Shown here piece by piece: positions 28,798-61,342 of a DNA stretch of 64,000 nucleotides. Position numbers and translations under genes: made by a program. This DNA comes from Thiobacillus denitrificans DSM 12475 (GTDB taxonomy: Bacteria; Pseudomonadota; Gammaproteobacteria; Burkholderiales; Thiobacillaceae). How positions within the stretch are numbered: the first letter of the stretch is position 1; each line of letters opens with the position of its first letter. The DNA is taken from the NCBI RefSeq assembly GCF_000376425.1, contig NZ_AQWL01000007.1, positions 62,001 through 126,000 of the forward strand. Direction: 5' to 3'. Below the pieces are notes generated by a model that was not told the DNA's origin, did not search any database, and was given only the letters and a program-made list of their open reading frames with translations.

Positions 28798-29652
28798 TCA
28801 GGCTACAGCCTTGTTGCGTTCGATCAAGGCATAAGCCGAGTGGTTGTGGATGGACTCGAAGTTCTCCGATTCGACTACGTACGAATCGATGCGCCTATCC
28901 GCATCCAGTGCCGCCGCCACATCGCGCACCATGTCTTCGACGAATTTGGGATTGTCGTAGGCACGCTCGGTGACGTACTTCTCGTCCGGCCGCTTGAGCA
29001 GGCCGTAGAGCTGGCTCGACGCGTTGTCTTCGGCGACGCGGACGATATCCTCGATCCAGATGAAACTGTTGGCGCGCACCGTCAGGGTCACGTGCGAGCG
29101 CTGGTTGTGCGCGCCGTAGCGCGAGATCTGCTTGGAGCATGGACACAGGCTGGTGACCGGAACGACGACCTTCATGGTCTGAAGGTAGCGCCCGTCGCGG
29201 ATTTCGCCAATGAAGGTCACATCGTAATCGAGCAGGCTCTCGACGCCTGATACCGGCGCTTTCTTGTTGATGAAATAGGGAAAATTCATTTCGACATGGC
29301 CGGAACGGGCTTCCAGCCGTTCCACCATCTGGCGCAGCATATGCTCGAAGGACTCCACCGATATTTCCCGCTCGTAGCCATTGAGGATCTCGAGGAAGCG
29401 GGACATGTGGGTGCCCTTGAAGTGATGCGGCAGATGCACGTACATGTTGAACAGGGCAATGGTGTGCTGCACGCCGCCACTCTTGTCCAGGACTTTGACG
29501 GGATGGCGGACCGCCTTGATGCCGACCTTGTCGATGGCGATCCGGCGCGCGTCGGGGGTGTTCTGGACATCGGGCATGGAAGCGGCCGTGCCGCCCGGGC
29601 GTGTGGCGGGGCAGGGCAGCTCGGTTTCGCAGACGGTATCGCAAGTGGTCAT
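28798..29652 (-). CDS. folE2: GTP cyclohydrolase FolE2 (type IB)
   Basis: 284-residue enzyme converting GTP to dihydroneopterin triphosphate, first step of both folate and methanopterin synthesis. The active-site Cys is in [12 protein letters not shown]. The family is related to archaeal MptA. The conserved N-terminus is [19 protein letters not shown]; the ORF extends 25 residues upstream with three extra Cys, and AGAAAG supports the ATG at 29652, while ATG 29577 would give the usual length. It lies 25 bases downstream of a Sco gene and next to the C1 activator, so a role in H4MPT supply is likely. Confidence 0.92.
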
Positions 29653-29677
29653 GGGTGGCTTTCTGTAAACGGGGTCA

Positions 29678-30226
29678 TCACGGCAGGAATCTGGAAACCA
29701 GTTTCAGCACTTCCGTTCCGGGCGTGCCGTAGGGAATGATTTTCACCAGCTTGCCGCCGGTGTCGATCAGGTAGGTGTTGACCGTATGATCGACGGTATA
29801 ACTCGATCCGGTCGGTACGTAGCGGAACTGGACGCCGTACTGATCGGCTACCTTGCGCAGTTCCTGTTCACTGCCGGTCAGGGCCAGGATTTCCCCGCCG
29901 AAGTGCTTGATGTAGGGATCGAGCACATCCGGGGTGTCGCGCTGCGGATCGACGCTGATGAAAATGGGCTGCACCCGGTGACGTTTCTCGGGCGGCAACC
30001 GGGCGAGCAGTTGCTGGAACTGGAGCAATTCGGCGGGACACATTTCCGGACAGTAGGTAAAGCCGAAATACAGCAGCACGACTTTGCCCTGCAGGGATGC
30101 CAGCGAAACCGGCTCTCCCTTGGTCGTGTGCAGCGTGAAATCGCCCCCCAGTGTCGTTGTTGCCCATGACGGACCAGCCAGGCACAAGGTAAACCAGAGC
30201 AGTGAAATGCGCAGAGCCACCAACAT
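29678..30226 (-). CDS. Sco1/SenC-type copper-binding thioredoxin-like protein
   Basis: 182 residues with an N-terminal signal or anchor (residues about 1-22, ending SWA). The thioredoxin-like domain holds the copper site: CPEMC near residue 58 and the distal His in VDHTVNTY. Sco proteins deliver copper to the CuA site of cytochrome oxidase or act as periplasmic thiol reductants. AAGGA precedes the ATG. It is the first gene of a two-gene unit with folE2, behind a strong sigma-54 promoter match. Confidence 0.9.
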
Positions 30227-30262: not shown

Positions 30263-30278
30263 AGCAGAAGACATGCCA
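30263..30278 (-). promoter_or_regulatory. sigma-54 promoter candidate for sco-folE2
   Basis: Minus-strand TGGCATGTCTTCTGCT against consensus TGGCAYRNNNNTTGCW: one mismatch, with GG and GC separated by exactly 10 bases. Transcription would start near 30252, 26 bases before the sco ATG. Confidence 0.75.
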
Positions 30279-30382: not shown

Positions 30383-30397
30383 GTGACAGTTTGTCTC
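30383..30397. promoter_or_regulatory. UAS-like dyad in the sco/activator spacer
   Basis: GTGACA-GTT-TGTCTC, a near-palindrome matching the perfect dyad GTGACA-CTC-TGTCAC found before fhcB. It lies about 125 bases from the -12 elements of both divergent sigma-54 candidates. Probable activator-binding site (inference). Confidence 0.55.
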
Positions 30398-30499: not shown

Positions 30500-30515
30500 G
30501 GGCGTGGATATTGCT
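30500..30515 (+). promoter_or_regulatory. weak sigma-54 promoter candidate for the activator gene
   Basis: GGGCGTGGATATTGCT has GG and GC at the right 10-base spacing and a perfect TTGCT, but mismatches at the first T and the A of the -24 box. Predicted start near 30526 would leave little room for the GAGGA ribosome site, which argues against it. Confidence 0.3.
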
Positions 30516-30534: not shown

Positions 30535-32496
30535 ATGGAGAGGCAAGAAATCTTGGAACATGCCCGTCAGGTGAACGCGGTGGTGGGATTGGGTGGCGCG
30601 ATAGAACCGGTGGAAGTGGGACCGGCGATTGCGCGCTCATGGAACCGATGCGCCCACGATTTCGGCCTCGATCCGGTAAAGGATGAGCCAATCGTGATTC
30701 TCGATAATCACGAACTGAAGGAACGCCAGGGCCCGCTGGAGCCCTTGCGTGCCATTGCCAAGGGAGAAATGGCGACGCTTTACCAGCAGTTGGCAGGCTC
30801 CGGTTTCTCGGTTCTGCTGACTGACCGTGAAGGCGTGGTGCTGGACTTTCTGGGCGACCCGACATTCAGCAAGACCGCCGCCGAGTGCGGCATGGTGGAA
30901 GGCGCGCTGTGGGGCGAGCGCCACCAGGGAACCAATGGCATGGGCACCTGCGCCATCGAGCAGCGCCCGATCCTGGTCCACCACAATGAACATTTTCTGA
31001 CGCGCAATATCGGCCTGACCTGTTCGGCTGCGCCCATTTTCGATTCCGAGGGCGGCCTGCTCGCAGTGCTGGATGCCTCCAGTTTCTCCCACATGGCGCA
31101 GCAGCACACACTGGTGCTGGTCAACATGTCGGCGCAGATCATCGAGAACCGCGCATTCCTGTGTCGTTTCCGCAACCAGTATGCGCTCCGTTTCCATAGC
31201 CGCCCGGAGCTCATCGGTACGTTGTGGGAGGGCGTCCTGGCGCTGGACGAGGAGGGCAACATCCTCGCCGCCAACCGCAGCGCGCTGTTCCAGTTCGGCT
31301 ACAAAAAGCCGGCCGACATGATCGGTCTGCAGTTGCGCGACCTGTTCAATACCGGCATGTCCGCGTTGATCGGTCACAAGAACCTGAGCTGGCTCAATCC
31401 GGTTCCGCTCTACGAAGCCCGCCAGGGCAATCGTTTCTTCGGCCTGATGCGCCCGCCGGAACACCAGGGCCCGTCCGCGGTTTCGCCCGCGCGCCGTGCC
31501 GCGCCTGCGATCACGGTTCCGGGCAACCCCAAGATCATGCGTCTGGAGGAGTTGCAGTTCGGCGATCCGACCATGGAATACAACGTGCGTTGTGCCAAAC
31601 GCGTGCAGGACCACGACATCCCCATCCTGCTGTACGGCGAAACCGGTACCGGCAAGGAGATCTTTGCCCAGGCGATCCATTACGAGCACGCGGGCGCAAA
31701 CCGGCCCTTCGTCGCCGTGAACTGCGCGTCGATTCCGGAAACCCTGATCGAAAGCGAATTGTTCGGTTACAAGTCGGGCGCTTTCACCGGGGCCAACCGG
31801 GAAGGACGGCGCGGCAAGATACTCCAGGCCAATGGCGGCACGCTGTTCCTGGACGAGATCGGCGATATGCCGATCATGTTGCAGGCCCGCCTGCTGCGCG
31901 TACTGGAAGAGCGTGAGGTCATCCCGCTGGGCGGGGAAGTCCCGATCAAGGTGGATATCAAGCTGATCAGCGCCACCCACCGCAACCTCAAGGAACTGGT
32001 TGCCGAGGGACGTTTCCGCGAAGACTTGTATTACCGCCTGCAAGGCATCGCCCTGACCCTGCCGCCACTGCGTGAGCGCCAGGACAAACGCGATCTGATC
32101 CGCCACGTTCTTGCCATGGAATGCGGCACCCGGGAAGAGGCGGTTCTCAGCGAGGGGGCGCTGCGCCAGCTGGAGGCCTATTCCTGGCCGGGCAATATCC
32201 GGCAGTTGCGCAACGTCTTGCGCACTGCGCTGGCGATGCGCGAGGGCAGGGAAATCACGACTTACGACCTGCTCGATGAAATCAGCCGGCTGACGCCAGG
32301 CGCGCAGCCCGCGGAATGCGCCACGGAGGCAGCGCCGCTGTCGTCCCTGGAAACGGCGGAACGCGATGCCATCCTGCACAACCTGGAGAAGTTCCGCTGG
32401 AACGTCACCCTGGCTGCCCGCCATCTCGGCATCAGCCGAAACACCCTGTACCGCAAGATGAAAAATCTCAATATCCGCATCAACAAGGAAGAATGA
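30535..32496 (+). CDS. sigma-54-dependent activator, AcoR-like (GAF-PAS-AAA-Fis)
   Basis: 653-residue enhancer-binding protein. An N-terminal GAF-type sensor region (about 70-185) is followed by a PAS-like segment (about 200-260), the AAA+ domain with Walker A GETGTGKE, the sigma-54-contacting GAFTGA loop, Walker B GGTLFLDEIGD, and a C-terminal Fis-type helix-turn-helix (LAARHLGISRNTLYRKMKN). No receiver domain is present, so it is probably ligand-controlled. ATG 30535 has GAGGA eight bases upstream; TTG 30511 and ATG 30520 are possible. It begins the operon of pterin and furan synthesis genes and diverges from sco-folE2. It is the obvious candidate regulator of the sigma-54 promoters in this window. 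Confidence 0.9.
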   Translation: MERQEILEHARQVNAVVGLGGAIEPVEVGPAIARSWNRCAHDFGLDPVKDEPIVILDNHELKERQGPLEPLRAIAKGEMATLYQQLAGSGFSVLLTDREGVVLDFLGDPTFSKTAAECGMVEGALWGERHQGTNGMGTCAIEQRPILVHHNEHFLTRNIGLTCSAAPIFDSEGGLLAVLDASSFSHMAQQHTLVLVNMSAQIIENRAFLCRFRNQYALRFHSRPELIGTLWEGVLALDEEGNILAANRSALFQFGYKKPADMIGLQLRDLFNTGMSALIGHKNLSWLNPVPLYEARQGNRFFGLMRPPEHQGPSAVSPARRAAPAITVPGNPKIMRLEELQFGDPTMEYNVRCAKRVQDHDIPILLYGETGTGKEIFAQAIHYEHAGANRPFVAVNCASIPETLIESELFGYKSGAFTGANREGRRGKILQANGGTLFLDEIGDMPIMLQARLLRVLEEREVIPLGGEVPIKVDIKLISATHRNLKELVAEGRFREDLYYRLQGIALTLPPLRERQDKRDLIRHVLAMECGTREEAVLSEGALRQLEAYSWPGNIRQLRNVLRTALAMREGREITTYDLLDEISRLTPGAQPAECATEAAPLSSLETAERDAILHNLEKFRWNVTLAARHLGISRNTLYRKMKNLNIRINKEE

Positions 32497-45531: not shown

Positions 45532-46044
45532 TCAGTTGTGGGCGGCGAACGGGTGACCCGCTTTGCCTTTTTTGGCTACGACATCCGCTGCCGTGGGCGT
45601 ACCGGAAACGGCATTCTTGATGGACTGCTTGGTGGCTTCGTAGTTGTAGTCCTGGATCTTGGTGTCGTCAGCGGCTTCCCAGTGAATGAACACGCCCACG
45701 CAGATAAAGAGGTCGTCGGCCTCGTTGGCGGGGATGGTGCCGTCTTCGACGCAGTCGGCCACTGCCATGGCGACGCCGCGCTGGGCCGGGCCGAACATCT
45801 GCACTGCCTGCTTGGCGCCCTTGATGGTCACCTTGTTGAACATCATGGTGTTGGGTTTTGTAGGCAGGTTGGGAGCCACCACCGCCAGCAGCGAGGTGAA
45901 GCCGTCTTTGTTGTTGACCAGGCCGTTGCAGAATGCCGTTTCGACGGCGCTGCCGCGGGGGCCCATGATCAAGTCGATATGCGCCACTTCGTTGCCGTCG
46001 CCAACCAAGGCCTCGCCTACCATTACGCGATCGATTTTAGCCAT
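45532..46044 (-). CDS. fae: formaldehyde-activating enzyme
   Basis: 170-residue enzyme condensing formaldehyde with H4MPT to methylene-H4MPT. The catalytic His is in [12 protein letters not shown] (residue about 22), and [22 protein letters not shown] and [13 protein letters not shown] are conserved. ATG 46044 has AAGGAG nine bases upstream, so the eight-codon upstream extension is rejected. It is usually one of the most abundant proteins in methylotrophs. The 111-base spacer before it holds overlapping palindromes. Confidence 0.96.
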
Positions 46045-46130
46045 CTTTAATTTCTCCTTGAATTGCACTGACTCGGTTGAATTGGGACGGTCCGCCAGCG
46101 CCGAGTTATCCGCTGACGGGCCGCTGCTAC

Positions 46131-47070: not shown

Positions 47071-47981
47071 GCGTAACGCTCCCGCAAAGCGGTTTCCACG
47101 TGCTGGTCGAGAAAATCGTTCACCAGCAGGGTGGCCACGTCGTCTTTCACGACTGTTTGCAGACCGCGCCAGGCCGGGATGCTGTTGACCTCGATCACCG
47201 TGAGCTGGCCGTCGCGATCACGCATCAGGTCCACACCGGTGTACGCCATGCCAAGGGCCTGGCTGGCCGCCTCCGCCATCTGGAACAGTGCCGGATCCGC
47301 CGGCGCCGGCAGGCAGCAGGCACCCTGCGCCACGTTGTTGATCCAGCTGGCACCGCGGCGGATCATGGCGGCGCGGCTGCGGCCGCCGACGACCAGGACC
47401 CGGTAGTCCTCCCAGTTGCCGGTGGCCGAGCCGACGAAGCGCTGCAGGTAGTAGACGTCCCGATATTCGGCTGCCGGCGGCAGGTCGGCGGGCGTGGTCA
47501 GGCGGCGCAGGCCGGTGCCCTGGGAGCCGAACAGGGGCTTCAGCACCAGCTCGTGGCCGCTGGCGGCTTCTCGTATCAGCAGGGCGCGGGCCTGCGCTTC
47601 GGACTCCATCACCCAGGTGGGCGGGGTAGGCACGCCGGCCCGGTGCAGCAGCAGGCTGGTCATGGCCTTGTCCACGCTGGTTTCGATGGCGCGTACCGGG
47701 TTGTATACGGGCACGCCTGCGGCGGGCAGGGCGTGCAGGAAATCCAGGCGCAGGATCACCTGCTCCAGGGTGCCGCCGGACACGCCGCGCACGAAAGCGC
47801 CGTCCGGCAGGCGATCCTCGAAACCCGGCAGTACCAGGCCGGCGATGCCGCGCTCCAGATCCACGCGGCATTCGCTCAGCGACAGGTTCACCGCCTGGTA
47901 GCCGCGGGCGGCGAAGGCGCGGCTGAGCTTCTTGCCGTGCCAGCCCGGGTCATCAGTGAAGATAGCGATGCGGCCGATCAT
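47067..47981 (-). CDS. RimK-family ATP-grasp ligase (H4MPT glutamate ligase candidate)
   Basis: 304-residue ATP-grasp enzyme. It has [16 protein letters not shown] (ATP loop) and [26 protein letters not shown] at the metal site. RimK-type ligases add glutamate to amino-acid or coenzyme tails; archaeal MptN and CofF are relatives, so glutamylation of H4MPT or methanofuran is the likely job. ATG 47981 overlaps the mch stop (ATGA). Confidence 0.82.
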
Positions 47982-48958
47982 GAAAACGAACGCTCCAGCA
48001 GTTCCCCGTTCAGATGTCCGGCCCGGAAAGTGCGACCTGTGGTCAGGCAAGTGACACTCACGCTGGCGGGGGCGAACAACAGGGGGTCGATCTTGTAGAA
48101 ATCATGGCCGGCCGCCTTGAAGACCTGGGCGAAGGGCTGGCCATAGTCACTGGATGCCTCGCTGGGCATGCGCTGGGCCAGGTCTTCCGCTGCCCCCTCC
48201 TCGCCGGAGACGAACAGGTGTACACGGCCGCCGAACAGGATGGCGTCGTTGGTGCGGCCCATGGCGACGAGGAAATCCGGAGATGGCGGGCAGACCGGTG
48301 CCGTACCCATGCCGTCGACGATATGCTCCACCGGAAAACCCAGGAAATGCGCCTTGTGCAGGGCCACTTCCAGCACCCGCGCCACCACCTGAACCGAACC
48401 GGCCAGGCTGGTGGTCGGGGTAAGGATCAGGGTCAGCTGCTGCGGCGCCACGCCGCATTGATCGGCGATCTTGTCGAGCAGCGGGATGGGGGGAACCTTG
48501 CCGGTTTCCAGCACCAGGCAAGCGGATTCGGCCTGATCCCGGTAGCCCAGTTCCTGGAACAGCGTTTCCTTGCCGGCCAGGGCGCGGCCAGGGCCGGAGC
48601 CCAGGGCGAAAAATCCTTCCTTGCCTTCGCCATGCGACAGGCTCCAGCCGGCGTACTGGCTGCCCAGGCAGGCCAGCACCGGTTGCGCGGTCGATACGGC
48701 GAGCTCCCAGGGCCATCCGGCAAAGCCGCCTGATGGACCGAGAGTGACCTGGCCCAGGCCGCCCAGGCAGATCTCGGCGATGCGCCGGCCTGCCTCGATC
48801 CCGCCCGGCACCTGGATTCCTGCGTCGACGATGCGGGTGCCGTTGGCCTGGTGCGAAATGGACAGACGCAGTGCTTGCGCCTCACGCACCAGTTGCTCCA
48901 CCAGGGGAGCGGCGAGTTGGTTGAGGCTGGGCAAGGCAGGGGTGGCGTTAAGGGTCAT
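47978..48958 (-). CDS. mch: methenyl-H4MPT cyclohydrolase
   Basis: 326-residue enzyme hydrolysing N5,N10-methenyl-H4MPT to N5-formyl-H4MPT. The conserved [26 protein letters not shown] and the C-terminal [12 protein letters not shown] are clear. The length matches the family. Start ATG 48958; the much longer open frame upstream overlaps the next gene out of frame. Confidence 0.94.
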
Positions 48959-48963
48959 GTGCT

Positions 48964-50166
48964 TCAGTTCCGCCCGGTGGTGGAAAGGAGAGGTGAAACG
49001 CGTTGGGTGGGGGGGCGTGCGCGGCCGGTTTCGACCTCGCCATGCCGTGACAGACGTTCGAGAATACGCTGGCGGAAACTCAAGGCCTGTTGTTCCGCCG
49101 CGTTGGCATCGGCAGCCGTCGCATGCACCGTGCAGACCGGGTCGCCCGGTTCCAGCAGGGTGTCCATGCGAGGCAGGTCGGCACTCCAGTCCGGCCAGGG
49201 AAAACCGGCGGGCACGCGCAGGGTTTCGCCGGCGTAGGCCACGGCGACGGCGCGGCTCGCCTCCGGTTTGGGCAGCGCGACCGGCAGGTGTCCGAGACAG
49301 GACTGGACATGCAGGTCGAACAGGGCCGGCATCGGATTCACATCCCAGAGTTCCAGGGTGGCGGTGGGGCGGGGGTTGAGTTCCAGCAGGCTCCAGTCGC
49401 TGCCGTTCACCACGAAATCGATGCCATTCAAACCCCTGAGGCCGAGGGCACCGGTGAGCGCGCGGGCCGCTGCCTGCACGGCCGGGCCGACACCGCCAGG
49501 CGCATTGTCCAGCGCCACGGCGCCAGCATAGGTCCAGCGTCCGGGCGCTTCGGCCGGCGCCGGCAGGAGACGGTTGAAACCGATCGCCCGGATTTCCCGG
49601 CCATCGGCGAGAAACAGCAGGGAGCAGGGCGTGCCGTCCACGCGGCGCTGGAAATAGATGCCGGGACGAGCCGCCATACCCGCCGCTTCGCGCACGTGGC
49701 GTCCGCCACATCCGCCGGCGCGTTTGGCCAGCCAGCCGGCAGGGTCCGCGGGCGGGGCGGACTGCACCTCGGGGAAGGGCAGTTCGAGGCGGCGCGCCAG
49801 GCTGGCGAAACGTATGGGATTAGCGCTCTCGGCCAGGACTTCCGCGGGATTGCCCAGGAGCTGGCGACCGCAGGCCAGCCGCTTCAGCAACTCTGGCTGA
49901 GCCTCGAAGCCGGAGCCGTACACCAGGCCGAGGCAATGCTCCACCGGGCTGAGGCGCGCGGCGGCTTCGACCAGGCCCAGGGGCGCCAGATCCCCGTTTT
50001 CGTCCAGCGGCAGCCGCTGCCAGAGCGGAGCCAGGTCGCAGGTATCGCGGTCGGCGAAGCCGTCCATGCCTACCGCGATCCGGCCGGCGCGTGCCGCTGC
50101 CTGCGCCAGGCCGCGGCCGCTCAGGGAAACCAGGAGAAAAGCCTCTGGGCGGGCTTCAGGCTGCAT
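48964..50166 (-). CDS. ATP-grasp domain protein of the H4MPT cluster
   Basis: 400-residue ATP-grasp-like protein. It contains [34 protein letters not shown], and [28 protein letters not shown] near residue 260, with the metal-binding Glu and Asn. It is found next to mch and mtdB in many proteobacterial H4MPT clusters. The substrate is unknown, probably an amino-acid ligation in cofactor synthesis. It overlaps mtdB by 11 bases. Confidence 0.78.
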
Positions 50167-51067
50167 GCAGGCGGGCCTCGTCCAGACACTCTGGGAAACC
50201 CAGATAAAGGGGCTTTTCGGCAGCCAGCATCTTCTGCAGCAAGCCTTGCTGAACCTTGTATTTGATGTTGCCGATGGCCAGGGGGCCGATACCTACAGCC
50301 TTGCCAGCGGCCGTGGACAGGGGAACGGCGTTGTCCATGACGCCGATGCCTTCCACGCCCGCCGGCGGCACGGCGTTGATGTCCGCCGCCACCAGGAGTG
50401 CCGTGGCACGGCCGAGATGCGCGGCCCCGAGCACCTGCACCCCGGCCTTGGCGGTAGCCAGTACGACCTCGGCCTGCGCCAGGAGGGCGTGCTTGGCCAC
50501 GTCAGAACTGGCGTCGGCGGCCTGGATGCCGACGCCGAAGCGGCCATTGAGGAGGCTCACTGCTTCGCTTGCGCGAGCCAGGCCATCATGACCGGGGATC
50601 GTGACCCGGGCGCCCGCCTGCGCGGCCAGCACCGCTGCTGTCATGCCCACTGGGCCGGTGCCGCCGAATACCACGACCTGGCGGCCGTCCAGGGTCGTGC
50701 CGTGGACCTGCGCCAGGGCCTGCTCCACCTTGGCAATCATGGCGGCGGCCGTGGTGTAGGCCCCGCTGGGATCCGCGAACACGGAAACCTCAAACGGCGG
50801 CACCATGGCCCGGCGAGCGGCGTCCAGCATATCGGTGGCGAGGATCGCGTCGCGGCCGCCGATGAAAATGCCGGTTCGTTTCACGCCCTTGGGGCCACGC
50901 GAGAAAATGGCGTCCTGGGTGAAGCCGGCGATGTCGGCGAGGCCGACCCCGCCATAGGGAATCACCGCGTTCCAGCCGGCGTCGTAAGCCATGTTCACGT
51001 CGAACGGGCTGACCCTGGCGTCCGGCGTGGCGAAATGCAGCAAATAGGGTTTTTCCATGAGTTTCAT
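50156..51067 (-). CDS. mtdB: NAD(P)-dependent methylene-H4MPT dehydrogenase
   Basis: 303-residue dehydrogenase oxidising methylene-H4MPT to methenyl-H4MPT. It has SPFDVNMAYDAGW and ENxAVP-like VMDNAVPLS, and the Rossmann GGTGPVGMTAAVLAAQAGA for NAD(P). MtdB and MtdC are hard to tell apart from sequence; MtdB is favoured by its neighbour mch. ATG 51067 or 51058; no strong ribosome site for either. Confidence 0.9.
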   Translation of the reverse strand: MKLMEKPYLLHFATPDARVSPFDVNMAYDAGWNAVIPYGGVGLADIAGFTQDAIFSRGPKGVKRTGIFIGGRDAILATDMLDAARRAMVPPFEVSVFADPSGAYTTAAAMIAKVEQALAQVHGTTLDGRQVVVFGGTGPVGMTAAVLAAQAGARVTIPGHDGLARASEAVSLLNGRFGVGIQAADASSDVAKHALLAQAEVVLATAKAGVQVLGAAHLGRATALLVAADINAVPPAGVEGIGVMDNAVPLSTAAGKAVGIGPLAIGNIKYKVQQGLLQKMLAAEKPLYLGFPECLDEARLHAA

Positions 51068-51098
51068 CGTTATTTTGTTTGGGATTCCCGTACCGGGT

Positions 51099-52091
51099 TT
51101 AGTGGTGTGCCGGGGCCAGCGCCGTGTTCGCCGCGATGCGCATATCCGCACCGCGATTGCGGCCGGCGCAAACCATGAATTCGAGGCCGTCGGCGGCGAA
51201 CTCGATACGCGCAAACTGAGCCAGGGCGCGCGCCCGCGTTTCCGAATCCGCCAGCGCGAATCCGGTTGGCCCCCACGAGCTCTGCCCCACCCCGGCGGCG
51301 CCATTTCCGGCCAACCAGTCGAGGGCGCGTGCCACGCGTGGACTGGCGAAGCGACCACCCTGGGCTGGCGCGAAATGGTCGCCTACCACCTCCTGGATCT
51401 CGCTGATGGCGGCACCGAAGTCCGCGATATCGCCCTCCGCCAGGGACGGCATCACCTGCATCAGTGCCAGGCGGCACAGATGGCCGGCGCTGGCTTCCGG
51501 AAATGTCGGCAGGCTGGCGAAAGCCTGCTTTTCCGCTTCGCCGTGCAGTCCCCGGTAGGCAGGATCGAATACCAGCACCAGCCGCCAGTGGGCGGGGAAT
51601 TTCAGGTGCGAGATCAGCGTGGGCGGCAGGTCCTGTTCTCCGCGGCCGCCGTCGACAACGAAGCCGCCATGTTCGAACAGGCCGATGCCGATGCCGGAGC
51701 GCCCGCCGCGGCCGAGTGCGGTGGCCACCTCACGTGGCGACCATGTCATACCGTAAAGGCGTGCCAGCGCGGTGCCGACCGCGAGGGCGAGCTGGGTGCC
51801 GGAACCGAGCCCGGCATGCTCGGGAATGGCCTGCTGGATGAACAGGCGCACGCCGCCCTTGATGCCGAGCGCGTGCAGGGCCGAACGCGCGTAGGTTTCG
51901 GCCCGGTCGGCCTGGGGGCCTTCGGCCGAGATGTGGTCATCGACATACGCGGTGACGGTGGTGGCGAGTTCCTCCACGGCCAGCCCCAGGCTGCCGAAAT
52001 TCCGCCCGAGGCTGCCGTTGAGGTCGAGAAACCCCATGTGCAGCCTTGCGGGGGCTCTTACGGTTGCGCTGCGATTGGCGGTGAGATTCAT
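51099..52091 (-). CDS. mptG: beta-ribofuranosylaminobenzene 5'-phosphate synthase (GHMP fold)
   Basis: 330-residue GHMP-kinase-fold enzyme joining p-aminobenzoate to PRPP with CO2 release, the committed step of H4MPT synthesis. The N-terminus ARLHMGFLDLNGSLGRNFGS and the glycine loop PEHAGLGSGTQLALAVG are conserved. First gene of the minus-strand operon mptG-mtdB-ATPgrasp-mch-rimK-citG-fae, 26 bases downstream of the predicted start of the sigma-54 promoter at 52128. Confidence 0.92.
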   Translation of the reverse strand: MNLTANRSATVRAPARLHMGFLDLNGSLGRNFGSLGLAVEELATTVTAYVDDHISAEGPQADRAETYARSALHALGIKGGVRLFIQQAIPEHAGLGSGTQLALAVGTALARLYGMTWSPREVATALGRGGRSGIGIGLFEHGGFVVDGGRGEQDLPPTLISHLKFPAHWRLVLVFDPAYRGLHGEAEKQAFASLPTFPEASAGHLCRLALMQVMPSLAEGDIADFGAAISEIQEVVGDHFAPAQGGRFASPRVARALDWLAGNGAAGVGQSSWGPTGFALADSETRARALAQFARIEFAADGLEFMVCAGRNRGADMRIAANTALAPAHH

Positions 52092-52127
52092 GGGTCAATG
52101 TAATAAGGATGCTTGGGCCTGACTGGA

Positions 52128-52143
52128 AGCAAGCCCCATGCCA
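52128..52143 (-). promoter_or_regulatory. sigma-54 promoter of the mptG-mtdB-mch-fae operon
   Basis: Minus-strand TGGCATGGGGCTTGCT is a perfect match to TGGCAYRNNNNTTGCW, with 10 bases between GG and GC. Predicted transcription start about 52117; mptG ATG at 52091. Confidence 0.85.
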
Positions 52144-52180
52144 TGAAAAAAGACCATACCAATCAGTGTGCTATCGTTTC

Positions 52181-52232
52181 GACAGGCTTGTCACTGTGTG
52201 ACACTCTGTCACGCGGAACAGGCGGCGTGACA
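52181..52232. promoter_or_regulatory. shared upstream activating sequence, four TGTCAC/GTGACA half-sites
   Basis: Half-sites TGTCAC (52189), GTGACA (52198), TGTCAC (52207) and GTGACA (52227); the first three are spaced nine bases apart and form two overlapping perfect dyads. GACA at 52181 pairs with TGTC at 52189. It lies 75 and 122 bases from the -12 elements of the divergent sigma-54 promoters. An IHF-like AAACCATTTGATT lies at 52271-52283. Confidence 0.75.
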
Positions 52233-52313
52233 TCTGGCCGGTACGGCGAGCGTATTGGTGTCAGCAAGACAAACCATTTGATTCGCCAGACAAATGCCGT
52301 CGCGCTTTGCATG

Positions 52314-52329
52314 TGGCACGGAATCTGCA
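52314..52329 (+). promoter_or_regulatory. sigma-54 promoter of fhcBADC
   Basis: TGGCACGGAATCTGCA matches the consensus except one base in the -12 box (C for T); GG-N10-GC spacing is exact. Predicted start about 52340, 25 bases before the fhcB ATG. Confidence 0.82.
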
Positions 52330-52364
52330 TGGTCAGGTCGCTTCCACACACATCGACCTCCTCT

Positions 52365-53606
52365 ATGCCCGATTCCTGCTGCCCCTTTTGTGGCCTCGTT
52401 TGCGACGACATCCGCGTCGCGACCGACGCTACCGGTGCCCGCGCCGAGAGCCCGGCCTGCGCGCGCGCTGTCAGACTGTTCCCCGTGCCTGCGCGCGGAA
52501 CGGCCCGGATCGCCGGCCAGGCTGCCGAGCCTGCCGCCGCCTACCGGGCCGCCGCCGCCCTGCTGAAGCGCGCGCAGCGTCCCCTGATCGGCGGACTGGC
52601 CTGTGACGTCACCGGCCACCGTGCCGCCCTGGCGCTGGCCGAGCGAACCGGTGGCGTGGTCGATCACATGAACGGCGCCGCCCAGTTCCGCAACTGGCTG
52701 GCATACCAGGATGGCGGCTGGATGACCACGACGCTGTCGGAAGTGCGCAACCGCGCCGACCTGATCGTGCTCGCCGGCACCGACACCTGCCGTTTTCCGC
52801 GTTTCTTCGAGCGCTGTCTGGCGCAGGAGTCCCAGTTCGGCGAGCTGCGCCGGCGCCTCGTTGTCCTGGGAAGCGGGCTTTCCCCGGAGGCGGCGCACTC
52901 CGTCTCACCGGATCTTGCCATCCCGCTCCAGAACGCGCGTCTGGGTGAATTGTGCGGCGCCCTGCGCGCGCGCCTGGCCGGCCGGCGCCTCGCTGCCGAC
53001 AGCGTAGCCGGGGTGCCGATGGATCAGGTCGACGCCTTGCTGGAGATGCTGCGCGCAGCACGCTACGGCGTGCTGGTATGGAACGCGGCGGAGCTGACGT
53101 TCCCGCACGCCGACCTGGCGATTCAGGCCATGGTCGATCTGGTCAAGGACCTCAACCAGACCACGCGCTGGTCGGGCCTGCCACTCGGCGGCAACGACGG
53201 CGACACTTCCGCTGCCCAGGTCTGCACCTGGCAGGCAGGCTATCCGTTGCGTACCGCCTTCGAGGCTTCTGGCCCGCACTATCAGCCGCTCCTGTTCGAC
53301 ACCGCGCGTCTGCTGGAAACGCGCGAGGTGGATGCGCTGCTATGGATCGCGGCGCTCGATCCGGAACGCGTGCCGCCAGCTGTCGCCTGCCCGCGCATCG
53401 TCCTGGGCCGGCCGGACATGGTCTTTGCCGACCCGCCGGACGTATTCATTCCCGTGGCCGTGCCCGGTGTGCACCACGCCGGCTTCATGCACCGCATGGA
53501 CGGGGTGGTGGCCCTGCCACTGCAAGGCCATACCCCCACCGAACTGCCCAGTGTGGCCCAGGCCCTGGCCGCGATCCAGCAGGAGATGAATCATGTTGCG
53601 ACTTAA
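52365..53606 (+). CDS. fhcB: formyltransferase/hydrolase complex subunit B
   Basis: 413-residue homologue of formylmethanofuran dehydrogenase subunit B. It begins PDSCCPFCGLVCDDIRV. In bacteria this subunit lacks molybdopterin chemistry and is structural within Fhc. Start ATG 52365 is chosen because the family N-terminus begins there and the predicted sigma-54 transcript starts at 52340; the open frame extends upstream through the promoter. No Shine-Dalgarno sequence is visible. It overlaps fhcA by 14 bases. Confidence 0.92.
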   Translation: MPDSCCPFCGLVCDDIRVATDATGARAESPACARAVRLFPVPARGTARIAGQAAEPAAAYRAAAALLKRAQRPLIGGLACDVTGHRAALALAERTGGVVDHMNGAAQFRNWLAYQDGGWMTTTLSEVRNRADLIVLAGTDTCRFPRFFERCLAQESQFGELRRRLVVLGSGLSPEAAHSVSPDLAIPLQNARLGELCGALRARLAGRRLAADSVAGVPMDQVDALLEMLRAARYGVLVWNAAELTFPHADLAIQAMVDLVKDLNQTTRWSGLPLGGNDGDTSAAQVCTWQAGYPLRTAFEASGPHYQPLLFDTARLLETREVDALLWIAALDPERVPPAVACPRIVLGRPDMVFADPPDVFIPVAVPGVHHAGFMHRMDGVVALPLQGHTPTELPSVAQALAAIQQEMNHVAT

Positions 53607-55257
53607 AGGTGGCCGCCTCTACGACCCTGAGCATGGCGTCGACGGCCAGGTGCGCGACCTCTATGTGGAGAATGGCCGCATCGTTGCCGCGCCCGGCCCG
53701 GAAACCCGGATAGACAGCGAGATCGACCTCGCCGGCCGGGTCGTGATGGCCGGTGCCATCGACCTGCACACCCATATCGGCGGCGGCAAGCTGAACATCG
53801 CCCGCGCCCTGCTGCCGGAGGATCACCGCGCCGATACGGTACCGGCCATGGGTGACATGCACGCCGGCTGCGGCCACGCCGCGCCGTCCACCTGGACCAC
53901 CGGCTACCGCTACGCCGAGATGGGCTATACCGCCTGTTTCGAGCCGGCCATGCTGCCCTCCAACGCACGCCATGCCCATCTGGAGATGGGCGATATCCCG
54001 ATGGTGGACAAGGGCGCCTACGCCATGCTCGGCAGCGACGATTTCTTTCTGCGTCTGCTGGCTTCCGGCAGCGACCAGCGCTTGATCAACGACTACGTCG
54101 GCTGGACGCTGGATGCCACCCAGGCCATGGCGATCAAGGTGGTGAACCCGGGTGCCATCTCCGCTTTCAAGTTCAACGCCCGCAACCTGGACCTGGACGA
54201 GGCGCACCCGCATTACGGCGTCAGTCCGCGCCAGGTGATCCAAGCCCTGGCCCGTGCCGTGCACGAACTGGGCGTGGCGCATCCGCTGCACGTGCACGCC
54301 AGCAACCTGGGCATTCCCGGCAACGCCGACAGCACGCTCGCCACCATGGCGGCGGCGGAAGGCCTGCCCATTCATCTGACCCACATCCAGTTCCACAGCT
54401 ACGGCACCGAAGGGGAGCGCAAGTTCTCCTCGGAGGCGGAACGTATCGCCGATGCCATCAACCGCATGAGCAACGTGTCGGCCGACGTCGGCCAGGTCTT
54501 GTTCGGCCAGACCGTCACCGCCTCCGGTGACAATATGAGCCAGCACCGCAATCACCGTCATGCCAGCCCGGACAAATGGGTGACCATGGACATTGAGTGC
54601 GATGCCGGCTGCGGCGTGGTGCCGTTCAAGTACAAGGACAAGAACTTCGTCAATGCACTGCAATGGGCCATCGGCCTGGAACTGTTCCTGCGGGTCAGCG
54701 ACCCCTGGCGCATTTTCCTGACCACCGACCATCCCAACGGCGCGCCCTTCACCAGCTATCCCCACCTGATCAGGCTGCTGATGGACCGGGGATTCCGCAA
54801 CGCGAAACTGGACGAGATCAATGCCGAGGCGGCGGCCCACAGCCAGCTGCGCAGCCTGGAGCGGGAATACAGCCTGTACGAGATCGCCATCATGACCCGC
54901 GCCGCGCCGGCCCGTTCCCTCGGCCTTTCCGACCATGGCCATCTGGGCGTAGGTGCGGCAGCGAACATCGTGGTGTACCACGACGATGCCAACCGCGAAG
55001 CGATGTTCGAAAAACCCGAGTACGTGTTCAAGGACGGCCAGATCATCGTGCGCGACGGCCGGGTGGTGAAGGTGGTCAACGGCGCCCAGCACGCGGTGAA
55101 ACCGGAATACGACAAGGCGATCGAGAAACCGCTCAAGGAATATTACGACCGTTACATGACCGTGAAGATGGAACACATCCGGGTAAGCGATGACGAGATC
55201 TGCGCCTGCGGCGCCAGCAAGCTGATCCCCCACCAATGCACGGGGAGGCGCGCATGA
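53593..55257 (+). CDS. fhcA: formyltransferase/hydrolase complex subunit A
   Basis: 554-residue amidohydrolase-type subunit that hydrolyses formyl-methanofuran to formate. It has the metal-site HTHIGGGK in the N-terminal third, the family block GHAAPSTWTTGYRYAEMGYT, HVHASNLGIPGN, HLTHIQFHSYG, and TTDHPNGAPFTSYP with the catalytic Asp. A Cys-containing tail (CACGASKL) ends the protein. Confidence 0.94.
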   Translation: MLRLKGGRLYDPEHGVDGQVRDLYVENGRIVAAPGPETRIDSEIDLAGRVVMAGAIDLHTHIGGGKLNIARALLPEDHRADTVPAMGDMHAGCGHAAPSTWTTGYRYAEMGYTACFEPAMLPSNARHAHLEMGDIPMVDKGAYAMLGSDDFFLRLLASGSDQRLINDYVGWTLDATQAMAIKVVNPGAISAFKFNARNLDLDEAHPHYGVSPRQVIQALARAVHELGVAHPLHVHASNLGIPGNADSTLATMAAAEGLPIHLTHIQFHSYGTEGERKFSSEAERIADAINRMSNVSADVGQVLFGQTVTASGDNMSQHRNHRHASPDKWVTMDIECDAGCGVVPFKYKDKNFVNALQWAIGLELFLRVSDPWRIFLTTDHPNGAPFTSYPHLIRLLMDRGFRNAKLDEINAEAAAHSQLRSLEREYSLYEIAIMTRAAPARSLGLSDHGHLGVGAAANIVVYHDDANREAMFEKPEYVFKDGQIIVRDGRVVKVVNGAQHAVKPEYDKAIEKPLKEYYDRYMTVKMEHIRVSDDEICACGASKLIPHQCTGRRA

Positions 55258-56150
55258 TCCGCAACGGCGTGAGCATCGACGACACCTATGCCGAAGCCTT
55301 CGGCATGAGGGCCACCCGTATCATCATCACCGCGGACAGCCTGGCCTGGGCGAAGCATTCCGCCAACGCGGCTTTTGGCTTCGCCACCTCGGTGATCGCC
55401 TGCGGCTGCGAGGCGGGCATCGAGCGCGAACTTGCCCCCGAAGAAACCCCGGACGGCCGTCCCGGTGTGGCCGGCCTGCTGTTTGCGGTCTCCAGCAAGG
55501 AGCTGGCCAAACAACTGGAACGCCGTGTCGGCCAGTGCGTGCTGACCTGTCCCACCACCGCCGTGTTCGCCGGTTGCGAAGGCGAGGAGCAATTGCCGCT
55601 GGGCAAGAACCTGCGCTATTTCGGCGATGGCTGGCAGATGTCCAAACTGATCGGCGGCCGGCGTTACTGGCGCATCCCGGTGATGGATGGCGAATTCCTG
55701 GCCGAGGAATCCACCGGACTGCTGCGTTCCGTCGGCGGCGGCAATTTCCTGGTTCTTGCCCGTTCCCGCGCCCAGGCACTCGCCGCCTGCGAGGCGGCGG
55801 CGGCGGCCATCGCCGGGGTGCCCGGCGCGATCGCGCCGTTCCCCGGCGGCGTGGTGCGTTCCGGTTCCAAGATCGGCTCCAAGTACAAGGCGTTGCCGGC
55901 GTCCACCAACGATGCCTTCTGTCCGACCTTGCGCGGCGTGGCCCGATCGGAACTGGGCGCCGACGTGGAAGCGGTGCTGGAGATCGTCATCGACGCGGTC
56001 AGCGACGCCGACATGCGCGTGGCCATGAAAGCCGGCCTCGACGCGGTGTGCGCGATCGGCGCGGCGGGCGGTATCGTGCGCTTGTCGGCCGGCAACTACG
56101 GCGGCAAATTGGGACAGTTCCACTATCGTCTGCGGGAGATTCTGGCATGA
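55254..56150 (+). CDS. fhcD: formylmethanofuran:H4MPT formyltransferase (Fhc subunit D)
   Basis: 298-residue Ftr homologue moving the formyl group between H4MPT and methanofuran. It starts IRNGVSIDDTYAEAFGM and contains CPTTAVFAG and GNFLVLARSRAQALAACEAA. GGGGAGG five bases before ATG 55254, which overlaps the fhcA stop (ATGA). Confidence 0.94.
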   Translation: MIRNGVSIDDTYAEAFGMRATRIIITADSLAWAKHSANAAFGFATSVIACGCEAGIERELAPEETPDGRPGVAGLLFAVSSKELAKQLERRVGQCVLTCPTTAVFAGCEGEEQLPLGKNLRYFGDGWQMSKLIGGRRYWRIPVMDGEFLAEESTGLLRSVGGGNFLVLARSRAQALAACEAAAAAIAGVPGAIAPFPGGVVRSGSKIGSKYKALPASTNDAFCPTLRGVARSELGADVEAVLEIVIDAVSDADMRVAMKAGLDAVCAIGAAGGIVRLSAGNYGGKLGQFHYRLREILA

Positions 56151-56956
56151 GCGCCATGACACTGACCTTGCGCGCCACCCCGAGCGGCCGCATCGACATG
56201 AGCGGCGTGCTGCCCGAAACCCTGGGTGGGCGCACTGCCGGCGATATCGCTGCACAAATCGTGCGGGTGGACGGCAACCCCGTGGCGCTGGGCGATCTGT
56301 TCGCGGTGACGCCGGGCGAGGCGGGCGCCGCGCTGCGGATTGATGCCGGCAGCAGCCGTCTCGATTGCCTCGGCAAGGGCATGACATCCGGCACGCTGCA
56401 TGTCGAAGGGTCGGCCGGGCATTATGCCGGCCAGAACCTGCGGGGCGGCGAGCTGATCATCGCGGGCGACGCCGGCGATTGCGCCGCCAACGGCATGCGC
56501 GGTGGCCTGCTGCGCATCGCCGGCAATGCCGGCAACTGGCTCGGCGCTGCCTTGATCGGCGACCGCGCCGGCATGGGCGGCGGCGTCGTCGCGGTGGCGG
56601 GCGATGCCGGTGATCGCCTCGGCGACCGCATGCGGCGCGGCCTGATCCTGGTGCGCGGCAAGGCCGGCGCAGCCTGCGGTGCGCGCTTGCTGGCCGGCAC
56701 TCTGGTAGTCGCCGGTGGATGCGCCGGCGCGCCCGGCCCCGGCCTGCGGCGGGGCAGCCTGATTCTCGGTCGTGCGCCGGACATCATGCCGGCTACCTAC
56801 AATGATGCCGGCGTGGCGGATCTGTCCTGGCTCGGCCTGCTGCGCCGCCACGCCGACGCCATCCTGCCCGGCGTGGTGTCGGACTCGTCGCGCGTGCACC
56901 GCCACATGGGCGACCTTGCCTTCGGCGGCAAAGGGGAAATCCTGGCGCCGGCATGA
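56147..56956 (+). CDS. fhcC: formyltransferase/hydrolase complex subunit C
   Basis: 269-residue right-handed beta-helix subunit like FwdC and the glutamate synthase C-domain. Glycine-rich repeats run through residues 80-200 (GGELIIAGDAGD, GGLLRIAGNAG, GGGVVAVAGDAGD). ATG 56147 with GGGAG upstream; overlaps fhcD by four bases. The order fhcBADC is the usual operon. Confidence 0.93.
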   Translation: MSAMTLTLRATPSGRIDMSGVLPETLGGRTAGDIAAQIVRVDGNPVALGDLFAVTPGEAGAALRIDAGSSRLDCLGKGMTSGTLHVEGSAGHYAGQNLRGGELIIAGDAGDCAANGMRGGLLRIAGNAGNWLGAALIGDRAGMGGGVVAVAGDAGDRLGDRMRRGLILVRGKAGAACGARLLAGTLVVAGGCAGAPGPGLRRGSLILGRAPDIMPATYNDAGVADLSWLGLLRRHADAILPGVVSDSSRVHRHMGDLAFGGKGEILAPA

Positions 56957-59861: not shown

Positions 59862-59876
59862 ATGACAGAGTGTCAT
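59862..59876. promoter_or_regulatory. UAS-like dyad ATGACA-GAG-TGTCAT
   Basis: Perfect palindrome with the same TGACA-N3-TGTC core as the sites before fhcB and before the activator gene. About 110 bases upstream of the -12 element at 59978. Confidence 0.6.
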
Positions 59877-59964
59877 CCGCTTGCCCTGGGCGCAGGACAG
59901 GTCGCGCCTGTCCAAGCGGACCGCAATCCAATGCCGGCCCGTCTTTGCGGCATGCCATGCCAAT

Positions 59965-59980
59965 TGGTTCGATTATTGCA
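59965..59980 (+). promoter_or_regulatory. sigma-54 promoter candidate for the histidine kinase operon
   Basis: TGGTTCGATTATTGCA: GG-N10-GC spacing is exact, the -12 TTGCA is perfect, and the only mismatches are two Ts in the -24 box. Predicted start about 59991, leaving a 74-base leader before the kinase gene. Confidence 0.65.
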
Positions 59981-60064: not shown

Positions 60065-61342
60065 TTGGATTACCCCGCTAATCCGTTTGCCTGGGTACTG
60101 CTATCGGCCGTTCTCATCCTGATGGCGGGCCTGGTGCTGCACGTTACCCGCCTCAATCTGCGGTTGCGCCATTCCAAGCAGGTGCTGGAAAACGAAATCA
60201 ACGAACGTCGCCGCGCCGAAGAGAAACTGGCGGAAAACGAAAATCGGCTGCGCCAGATCATCGCTTCGGAGCCGGAGTGCGTGAAGCTGCAAACCCTCGA
60301 CGGCATCCTGCTGGAAATGAATCCGGCCGGGCTGGCGCTGCTCGAAGCCAGCCAGCCGGGCGACATTATCGGCACCTCAGTCTACGACATGGTCGCACCG
60401 GAGTTCTGCGACGAATACCGCACCCTCACCGAACGGGTGTTTGCCGGGGAATCCGGTGTCATGGAGTTCCAGATCGTCAGCCTGAAAGGCCGCCGGTGCT
60501 GGATGGAGACTCACGCCGTGCCGCTGCGTGACGGGCGCGACAACGTGATCGCACTGCTTGGTATCACGCGCGACATCACGGCGCGCAAGCACGCCGAGGA
60601 CGAGGTGCGCCTGCATTACCGTGAGCTAGCCCATGCTGCGCGTGTCAACACCATGGGCGAGATGGCTTCCGGTCTGGCGCATGAGCTGAACCAGCCGCTT
60701 GCCGCCATTGCCAACTACTCGCGTGGCTGCCTGCGGCGCATCCGTTCCGGCGCCGGCGCGGCGGAAGACATGACCCAGGCCATCGAGCAGGTCTGCCTGC
60801 AGGCCGAGCGTGCCGGCGGCATTATCAGCAGCCTGCGCCGTTTCGTGAACAAGGAGGACAGCCCTCACCGGGTACAGGATCTGCATGCCATCGTGCGCGA
60901 AGCCATGCTGATTGCCGGGCCGGAAGTGAAGCTGCATCAGGTCAACGTCAGGCTGAATCTGGCACCCGGCATGCCGCACGTGCTGGGCCACGCCATCCAG
61001 ATCGAGCAGGTCGTGATCAATCTGGTGCGCAACGCGATCGAGGCGATGGGCGACGTGCCGCCCGAACGACGCTATCTCACGCTGCGCACCTATGTGGCGG
61101 AGGAGAAGGCGGTGGTGGAGGTGCGCGATACCGGCTCCGGGCTGGCGCGTGAAATGCAGAGCCGGATTTTCGAGCCGTTCTTCACCACCAAGTCGGTCGG
61201 CATGGGCATGGGGCTGCCGATCTGCCGCTCTATCGTCGAGGCCCATGGTGGCGCCCTGATTTCCCTGTCCAACCCGAACGGCGATGGACTCACGTTCCGC
61301 TTCACCTTATGCCGGGCTACCGCGGAGGAAATAGATGGCTGA
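60065..61342 (+). CDS. PAS-domain sensor histidine kinase (FixL/DctB-like)
   Basis: 425-residue membrane-anchored kinase. One N-terminal membrane helix (about residues 7-29) leads to a short coiled coil and a PAS domain (about 55-175). The phospho-acceptor His is in GLAHELNQPLAAI, and the ATP-binding domain has LVRNAIEAM, DTGSGL and TTKSVGMGMGLPI. It starts with TTG nine bases after GGGAG; no ATG is near. It overlaps the response regulator by eight bases, forming a pair. The signal sensed is unknown. Confidence 0.88.
   Translation: MDYPANPFAWVLLSAVLILMAGLVLHVTRLNLRLRHSKQVLENEINERRRAEEKLAENENRLRQIIASEPECVKLQTLDGILLEMNPAGLALLEASQPGDIIGTSVYDMVAPEFCDEYRTLTERVFAGESGVMEFQIVSLKGRRCWMETHAVPLRDGRDNVIALLGITRDITARKHAEDEVRLHYRELAHAARVNTMGEMASGLAHELNQPLAAIANYSRGCLRRIRSGAGAAEDMTQAIEQVCLQAERAGGIISSLRRFVNKEDSPHRVQDLHAIVREAMLIAGPEVKLHQVNVRLNLAPGMPHVLGHAIQIEQVVINLVRNAIEAMGDVPPERRYLTLRTYVAEEKAVVEVRDTGSGLAREMQSRIFEPFFTTKSVGMGMGLPICRSIVEAHGGALISLSNPNGDGLTFRFTLCRATAEEIDG

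Follow-up and report, generated by a model that had tools for sequence, protein, structure and literature searches.

The 273-base gap between mptG and fhcB (positions 52092-52364 of the window, by which we mean the whole stretch of 64,000 nucleotides of Thiobacillus denitrificans DSM 12475 that was analysed) is very probably a bidirectional sigma-54 control region, served by the enhancer-binding protein encoded at 30535-32496. A sequence-only reading of the window had proposed divergent sigma-54 promoters around a shared enhancer at this place, and comparison with related genomes supports that layout. The regulon is predicted to be wider than the mpt and fhc operons, taking in sco1-folE2, formate dehydrogenase and mtoX as well. 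The proposal thus holds and even reaches somewhat further than the sequence-only reading had assumed: the regulon is new, and the kind of control is a well-known one.

The two genes diverge from the gap, with the mptG start at 52091 on the minus strand and the fhcB start at 52365 on the plus strand. The predicted -24/-12 promoter of the mptG operon, TGGCATGGGGCTTGCT, lies at 52128-52143 on the minus strand, matches the consensus perfectly and would start transcription near 52117. On the plus strand, the predicted promoter of fhcBADC, TGGCACGGAATCTGCA at 52314-52329, has one mismatch, and its start is expected near 52340. Ten bases separate the GG of the -24 part from the GC of the -12 part on both sides of the gap; the fhcB promoter departs more from the consensus, with CTGC in its -12 part. 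Transcription by sigma-54 polymerase starts about 12 bases past the -12 GC and requires RpoN. An rpoN gene is clearly present in the genome (PF04552, 221.7 bits, on contig C4), and we infer that both promoters depend on its product.

In a scan of the 3.61-Mb genome, the mptG site was one of three perfect matches to TGGCAYGN4TTGCW; with at most one mismatch there were 90 matches, compared to 33 for the reversed pattern. Chance occurrence within the gap was assessed with 5000 dinucleotide shuffles of its 273 bp. A perfect site on the mptG strand appeared in 2 of the 5000 shuffles, an fhcB-strand site with no more than one mismatch in 33, and a perfect GTGACA-N3-TGTCAC dyad in a single one, while both promoters together were found in none. 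Scans that tolerate two mismatches were at chance level, both for promoters in the window (12 found, 16.4 expected) and for the dyad in the genome (48 places, 49 for the reversed control). Two-mismatch scans for the -24/-12 element or the dyad alone were thus discarded as a guide, and the weight of the argument lies on the quality, position, orientation and conservation of the sites. The two other perfect sigma-54 sites of the genome (C5:159917 and C4:295261) were set aside, as no dyad with up to two mismatches was found in their 3-kb loci.

Conservation was assessed in a family sample of 118 genomes, in which 13 mptG-fhcB gaps were readable (G018 holds only a fragment of mptG and was left out). 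Both promoters claimed by the sequence-only reading held up here: the mptG site is kept with at most two mismatches in all 13 gaps, and the fhcB site shows a single mismatch in 12 gaps and three in that of G062. The reading had also listed four TGTCAC/GTGACA half-sites. All four are present, starting at 52189, 52198, 52207 and 52227, but they differ in rank. The core is the 15-bp dyad GTGACA-CTC-TGTCAC at 52198-52212 (UAS1), which is the predicted enhancer common to both promoters and the only perfect GTGACA-N3-TGTCAC match in the genome; its 12 specified bases are invariant in 13/13 gaps. The second half-site, GTGACA at 52227-52232 (UAS2), reads GTGACA in ten gaps, GGTACA in two (G039, G034) and GTTACA in one (G103). 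The extra half-site TGTCAC at 52189-52194 is conserved in the closest relatives only (TGTCGC in G060 and G061). Together with the half-site at 52198 it forms the palindrome TGTCAC-TGT-GTGACA (52189-52203). This palindrome occurs nowhere else in the genome and for that reason looked like the enhancer; since the relatives do not keep its outer half, the GTGACA-N3-TGTCAC dyad was preferred.

Two strings resembling IHF sites flank the half-sites. The one named by the sequence-only reading, AAACCATTTGATT at 52271-52283 between UAS2 and the fhcB promoter, does exist, but it is only partly conserved (one invariant column of 13). Better conserved is a string which that reading had not listed, AATCA-N5-CTA at 52161-52173 between UAS1 and the mptG promoter: its AATCA and CTA columns are invariant in 13/13 gaps, and it shows two departures from the IHF consensus WATCAANNNNTTR. 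Measured from start to start, the dyad and the mptG site are 67-70 bp apart in the 13 family genomes. The alignment columns of UAS1 and of both promoters have a mean identity of 0.87-0.92, compared to 0.60 in the 193 other intergenic columns.

The operons on either side encode the two halves of the C1 pathway. The left one, on the minus strand, runs in the order mptG, mtdB, an ATP-grasp gene, mch, a second ATP-grasp gene (MptN-like), a CitG-like gene, fae and cofactor genes. Its first gene, mptG (51099-52091), belongs to the beta-RFAP synthase family and scores over the cut-off of the TIGR00144 subfamily, but below that of the narrower model NF040726. It is followed by mtdB for methylene-H4MPT dehydrogenase (50156-51073, PF09176 Mpt_N), the ATP-grasp protein gene of the C1 cluster (48964-50166) and, by profile matches, mch for methenyl-H4MPT cyclohydrolase (47978-48928) and fae for the formaldehyde-activating enzyme (45532-46068). 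On the plus strand, fhcA (53593-55257, TIGR03121), fhcD (55236-56150, TIGR03119) and fhcC (56159-56956, TIGR03122, inside a longer open reading frame at 55535-56956) all score over their cut-offs. The product of fhcB (52365-53606) reaches 292 bits with TIGR03129, under the cut-off of 328, and has no Pfam match; despite this score the assignment was kept because position and neighbours agree with it.

The activator gene lies at 30535-32496 on the plus strand and is flanked by sco1-folE2 and by pterin/flavoprotein genes. Its product has the domains of an enhancer-binding protein: GAF, PAS (just below its Pfam cut-off), a sigma-54 AAA+ domain (PF00158, 222 bits) with GAFTGA at residue 415, and a Fis-type HTH_8. 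It carries one of the ten strong sigma-54 activator domains of the genome. Eleven loci with a match to its sensor part include that of Thiobacillus thioparus DSM 505, and the loci of Thiobacillus sp. 65-1059 and 65-1402 are 93% identical to it in this part. Among PDB sequences, DhaR (4lrx, E 4e-4) matches the sensor part best. A sigma-54-like string, GGGCGTGGATATTGCT, is found at 30500-30515, 19 bases ahead of the activator ATG; of the 12 genomes aligned, 11 retain the GATATTGCT part of this string. It was rejected as an autoregulatory promoter since the start would fall beyond the likely ribosome site.

That this protein is the regulator, as the sequence-only reading had suggested, is supported by its co-occurrence with mptG and with the promoter-dyad module. 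In the family sample, mptG is present in 14 of 118 genomes. Close orthologs of the activator (at least 74% identity in the sensor part) are found in 12 genomes, all of them among these 14, and in none of the 104 without mptG; in nine of the twelve, activator and mptG share a contig. Fisher's test gives 1e-14, which is no true probability as the genomes are related. The two mptG genomes whose assemblies hold no close activator, G103 (87% complete) and G034 (88% complete), do have the module. The contig of G034 stops short of the site where its sister G039 carries the activator gene. G103, however, counts against the link, since the expected place of the activator should fall inside its 43-kb contig.

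The dyad also pointed to further targets. With at most one mismatch it occurs at six places in the genome, a count not above a rough chance figure, so that only the locations are telling: five of the six lie in four C1 or sulfur promoters, namely mpt/fhc, fds (twice, before fdsG-fdsB), sco1 and mtoX. The sixth, C1:334539, was set aside because it lies inside a predicted reading frame. As fds and mtoX were picked as targets through the dyad in the own genome, the relatives serve as the check. For sco1-folE2, predicted regulon members on the minus strand at 28798-30226 (sco1 29678-30226, folE2 28798-29652), the dyad scan gave GTGACAGTTTGTCTC with one mismatch at 30383-30397, between these genes and the activator gene, and the promoter scan together with the relatives gave the sigma-54 site TGGCATGTCTTCTGCT at 30263-30278 on the minus strand. 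In the 12 activator-bearing genomes this -24/-12 site is kept with at most two mismatches throughout and with at most one in nine. The dyad has one mismatch in four of them, two in two (G018, G019) and three in one (G062), and is replaced by GGTACA-N3-TGTACC in the other five.

Before the fds genes for NAD formate dehydrogenase, a -24/-12 site with at most one mismatch was found in all 12 genomes with a readable upstream region, and a dyad of the form GKKACA-N3-TGTMMC, again with at most one mismatch, in ten, with two mismatches in G107 and G082; G103 gave no FdsB match. Thirteen of the 118 family genomes give a strong SBP56/mtoX match, and another four give a weak, partial one; of the 13 with a strong match, 12 have mptG and 11 have the close activator. 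In all 12 genomes with both mptG and mtoX, a dyad and a -24/-12 site precede mtoX, the site having two mismatches in the own genome and at most one in the other 11. No dyad and no such site was found near mtoX in G055, which has neither mptG nor the activator; its only two-mismatch string lies about 1.2 kb upstream. In six genomes (G060, G061, G062, G039, G019, G034) fds and mtoX are divergent neighbours with common dyads, and this pair of sites is also present upstream of mtoX in G018. In G034, whose assembly contains no close activator, both mptG and mtoX retain the module. The operon of G061 (L178) reads mtoX-SCO1-mauG-fae (PF05694, PF02630, PF03150, then Fae), so that formaldehyde from methanethiol would meet Fae made from the same operon. 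Of such an operon, only mtoX, a SCO1-like and a Fae-like match were seen in the own genome.

One weak candidate for a further module lies in the window at 59862-59980 on the plus strand, before the histidine kinase gene at 60065. It consists of the UAS ATGACAGAGTGTCAT (59862-59876) and the sigma-54 site TGGTTCGATTATTGCA (59965-59980), each with two mismatches and 103 bp apart. The layout is the same in G060, and no such pair was seen before the kinase genes of G062. The kinase is FixL-like and is paired with a LuxR-type regulator about 3 kb past fhcC. Elsewhere in the genome (L002, G000:C10:62786-63238), a second, divergent match to a sigma-54 DNA-binding domain (36 bits, in a 418-aa frame) adjoins a frame that by eye reads as SRAP-type.

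Outside the family, the sample comprised 399 genomes of the order, 38 of them with mptG; 36 of these lie outside the family, and the region upstream of mptG was scanned in all 36. A -24/-12 site with at most two mismatches and, 68-90 bp upstream of it, a relative of the dyad (GTGACA-N3-TG[CT]TCC and the like) were found in nine, which belong to four families (G164, G207, G283, G197, G238, G153, G147, G143, G189). Eight of the nine encode an activator whose sensor part has 47-54% identity, and in six of the eight its gene shares a contig with mptG; among the remaining 27 outside genomes with mptG there is none of this identity. The exception, G189 (87% complete), has the module, and the close activator is absent from its assembly. 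Fisher's test of activator against module gives 3e-7, which the relatedness of the genomes again keeps from being a true probability. The dyad-to-site distance in the nine genomes is 68, 78-79 or 90 bp. Taken with the family values, the spacings on the mptG side (67-70, 78-79 and 90 bp) thus differ in steps of about one helical turn, which would keep the activator on the side of the DNA that faces the polymerase.

More distant relatives of the activator adjoin C1 genes in G234, G374 and G174 (sensor identity 42%, 40% and 36%, the range of some unlinked copies elsewhere). At mptG, G374 has a weak module whose two parts carry two mismatches each and are separated by 67 bp; G234 has a two-mismatch site with no dyad, and a one-mismatch site about 590 bp upstream; in G174 no module was found upstream of mptG. 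Two-mismatch -24/-12 strings without a dyad also occur in G231 and, on the other strand, in G304. No such module precedes the eight outside activator genes themselves. A tree was built from 53 activators, excluding L092 and matches without a locus; in it, the C1-linked proteins group together with support 86/96, below the tool's star, and the long-branch warning covers G283, G147 and G174, among others. A single extra Thiobacillus copy falls inside this group, within which the eight outside activators do not make up a clade of their own.

Thiobacillus sp. 63-78 has a second C1-linked activator copy (L189, G064:C24:18000-32000; 55% in the sensor part). AIR-synthase-type and DsbD genes lie near it, and the module is absent from this 14-kb locus. 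In three larger genomes from three families (L218, L219, L225), a relative of the activator lies between fae and a flavoprotein gene in the C1 cluster, and no clear sigma-54 module was seen at mptG. In G153 (L227, 11618-13035), the activator has a SoxY-SoxZ fusion gene and one for a DUF3280 protein in its vicinity, and DUF3280 is near it in G143, too (L236).

Chance resemblance of look-alike motifs in a GC-rich intergenic gap can be practically dismissed. It draws on the fact that the two-mismatch scans for either motif do not rise above background, but is already contradicted by the shuffles, none of which contained both promoters, and by conservation in 13 family genomes and nine outside. 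It is improbable, though less so, that the sigma-54 promoters are real and that another activator of the genome works at the dyad, the protein from the C1 cluster controlling something else. The genome offers ten strong candidates, and three module genomes (G103, G034, G189) have no close ortholog of this one in their assemblies. Against this, the activator tracks the module in 12 of 14 family genomes with mptG and, outside the family, in eight of the nine that have the module, its gene mostly sharing a contig with mptG, in a comparison that traced one of the ten activators. Very unlikely, in our view, is that an unrelated regulator (a repressor or a sigma-70 activator) uses the dyad as its operator, with the -24/-12 elements kept for other reasons or only one of them in use. 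The CTGC of the fhcB promoter, its three mismatches in G062 and the persistence of the module at mptG and mtoX in G034 would fit such an operator, but not the recurrence of the dyad with -24/-12 sites at five transcription units, the spacing shifts by helical turns or the absence of the module from G055, the sole strong-mtoX genome that lacks both activator and mptG. A bidirectional sigma-54 control region served by the activator at 30535-32496 is thus the explanation that we prefer. Activator and dyad are strongly linked; as a correlation among related genomes, whose counts are not independent, this link suggests that the one acts at the other.

As to the signal, a C1 metabolite such as formaldehyde is more likely than methanethiol itself, because no SBP56 match was found in five of the eight outside genomes that have both the activator and the module (G164, G238, G153, G147 and G143, of which G238 is only 85% complete). 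That methanethiol or dimethylsulfide is the inducer, with the C1 pathway controlled as a consequence, is possible but rather doubtful. It would agree with the close activator in 11 of 13 strong-mtoX family genomes and with the response of Ruegeria pomeroyi mtoX to methanethiol (PMC5739008). By a narrow measure, we favour the broader view that a single family of activators, found in five or more families of the order, acts as a dedicated C1 sigma-54 switch, probably responsive to formaldehyde, which drives both H4MPT halves from one bidirectional enhancer and in Thiobacillus took over mtoX and formate dehydrogenase.

Under the preferred explanation, the activator would bind the dyad at 52198-52212, aided by the half-site at 52227, and IHF-type bending would let it reach the sigma-54 polymerase at both the mptG and the fhcB promoter. 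ATP-driven opening would then switch on both halves of tetrahydromethanopterin/methanofuran formaldehyde oxidation together. The same activator and dyad may serve sco1-folE2, fds and mtoX-SCO1-mauG-fae elsewhere in the genome, and the resulting regulon would cover the route from methanethiol through formaldehyde and formate to CO2. Methanethiol oxidation is a step of dimethylsulfide breakdown; if the proposal is true, organic-sulfur degradation and C1 oxidation are joined in one Thiobacillus regulon. The activator gene, its predicted DNA site and the five predicted target units are conserved in the type strain T. thioparus DSM 505 (G107).

Among known activators, those of the AcoR type have the domain order GAF-PAS-AAA+-HTH_8. 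The protein encoded at 30535 resembles the AcoR/DhaR type in this order; however, its sensor sequence is far from DhaR, and AcoR and DhaR act on acetoin or dihydroxyacetone genes, while a C1 pathway is the predicted target here. SfnR of Pseudomonas controls the sfnFG operon, and we know of no link of SfnR to the C1 pathway or mtoX. By description, SfnR and, if our prediction is right, the activator at 30535 are alike as sigma-54 activators tied to methylated-sulfur metabolism. SfnR is cited as a sigma-54 activator for dimethyl sulfone use in PMC13352529. According to PMC5739008, the mtoX-SCO1-mauG operon of R. pomeroyi is induced by methanethiol and has an IclR-type gene upstream, in contrast to the predicted sigma-54 promoter and dyad described here and, in G061, to an operon that includes fae. 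For Methylosinus sporium 5, a C1-oxidising bacterium with mapped transcription starts, PMC12403871 places a sigma-54 motif before nitrogen genes and names the RpoD motif as the predominant one ahead of methane and central carbon genes, whereas we predict sigma-54 sites at C1 genes. For Methyloversatilis universalis, the portion of PMC5023235 that was covered names no regulator of the H4MPT genes.

Among the matches listed in open-access full-text searches, with subscription literature mostly outside their scope, there was no sigma-54 control of the H4MPT pathway or mtoX; nor did the matches listed include a described regulator of the H4MPT formaldehyde pathway or of methanethiol oxidation in Thiobacillus. 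In textbook divergent regions, one enhancer lies between two -24/-12 promoters, with IHF-like sites. The mptG-fhcB gap has the same layout as these shared-enhancer regions, and what is new is the target, the H4MPT/methanofuran pathway.
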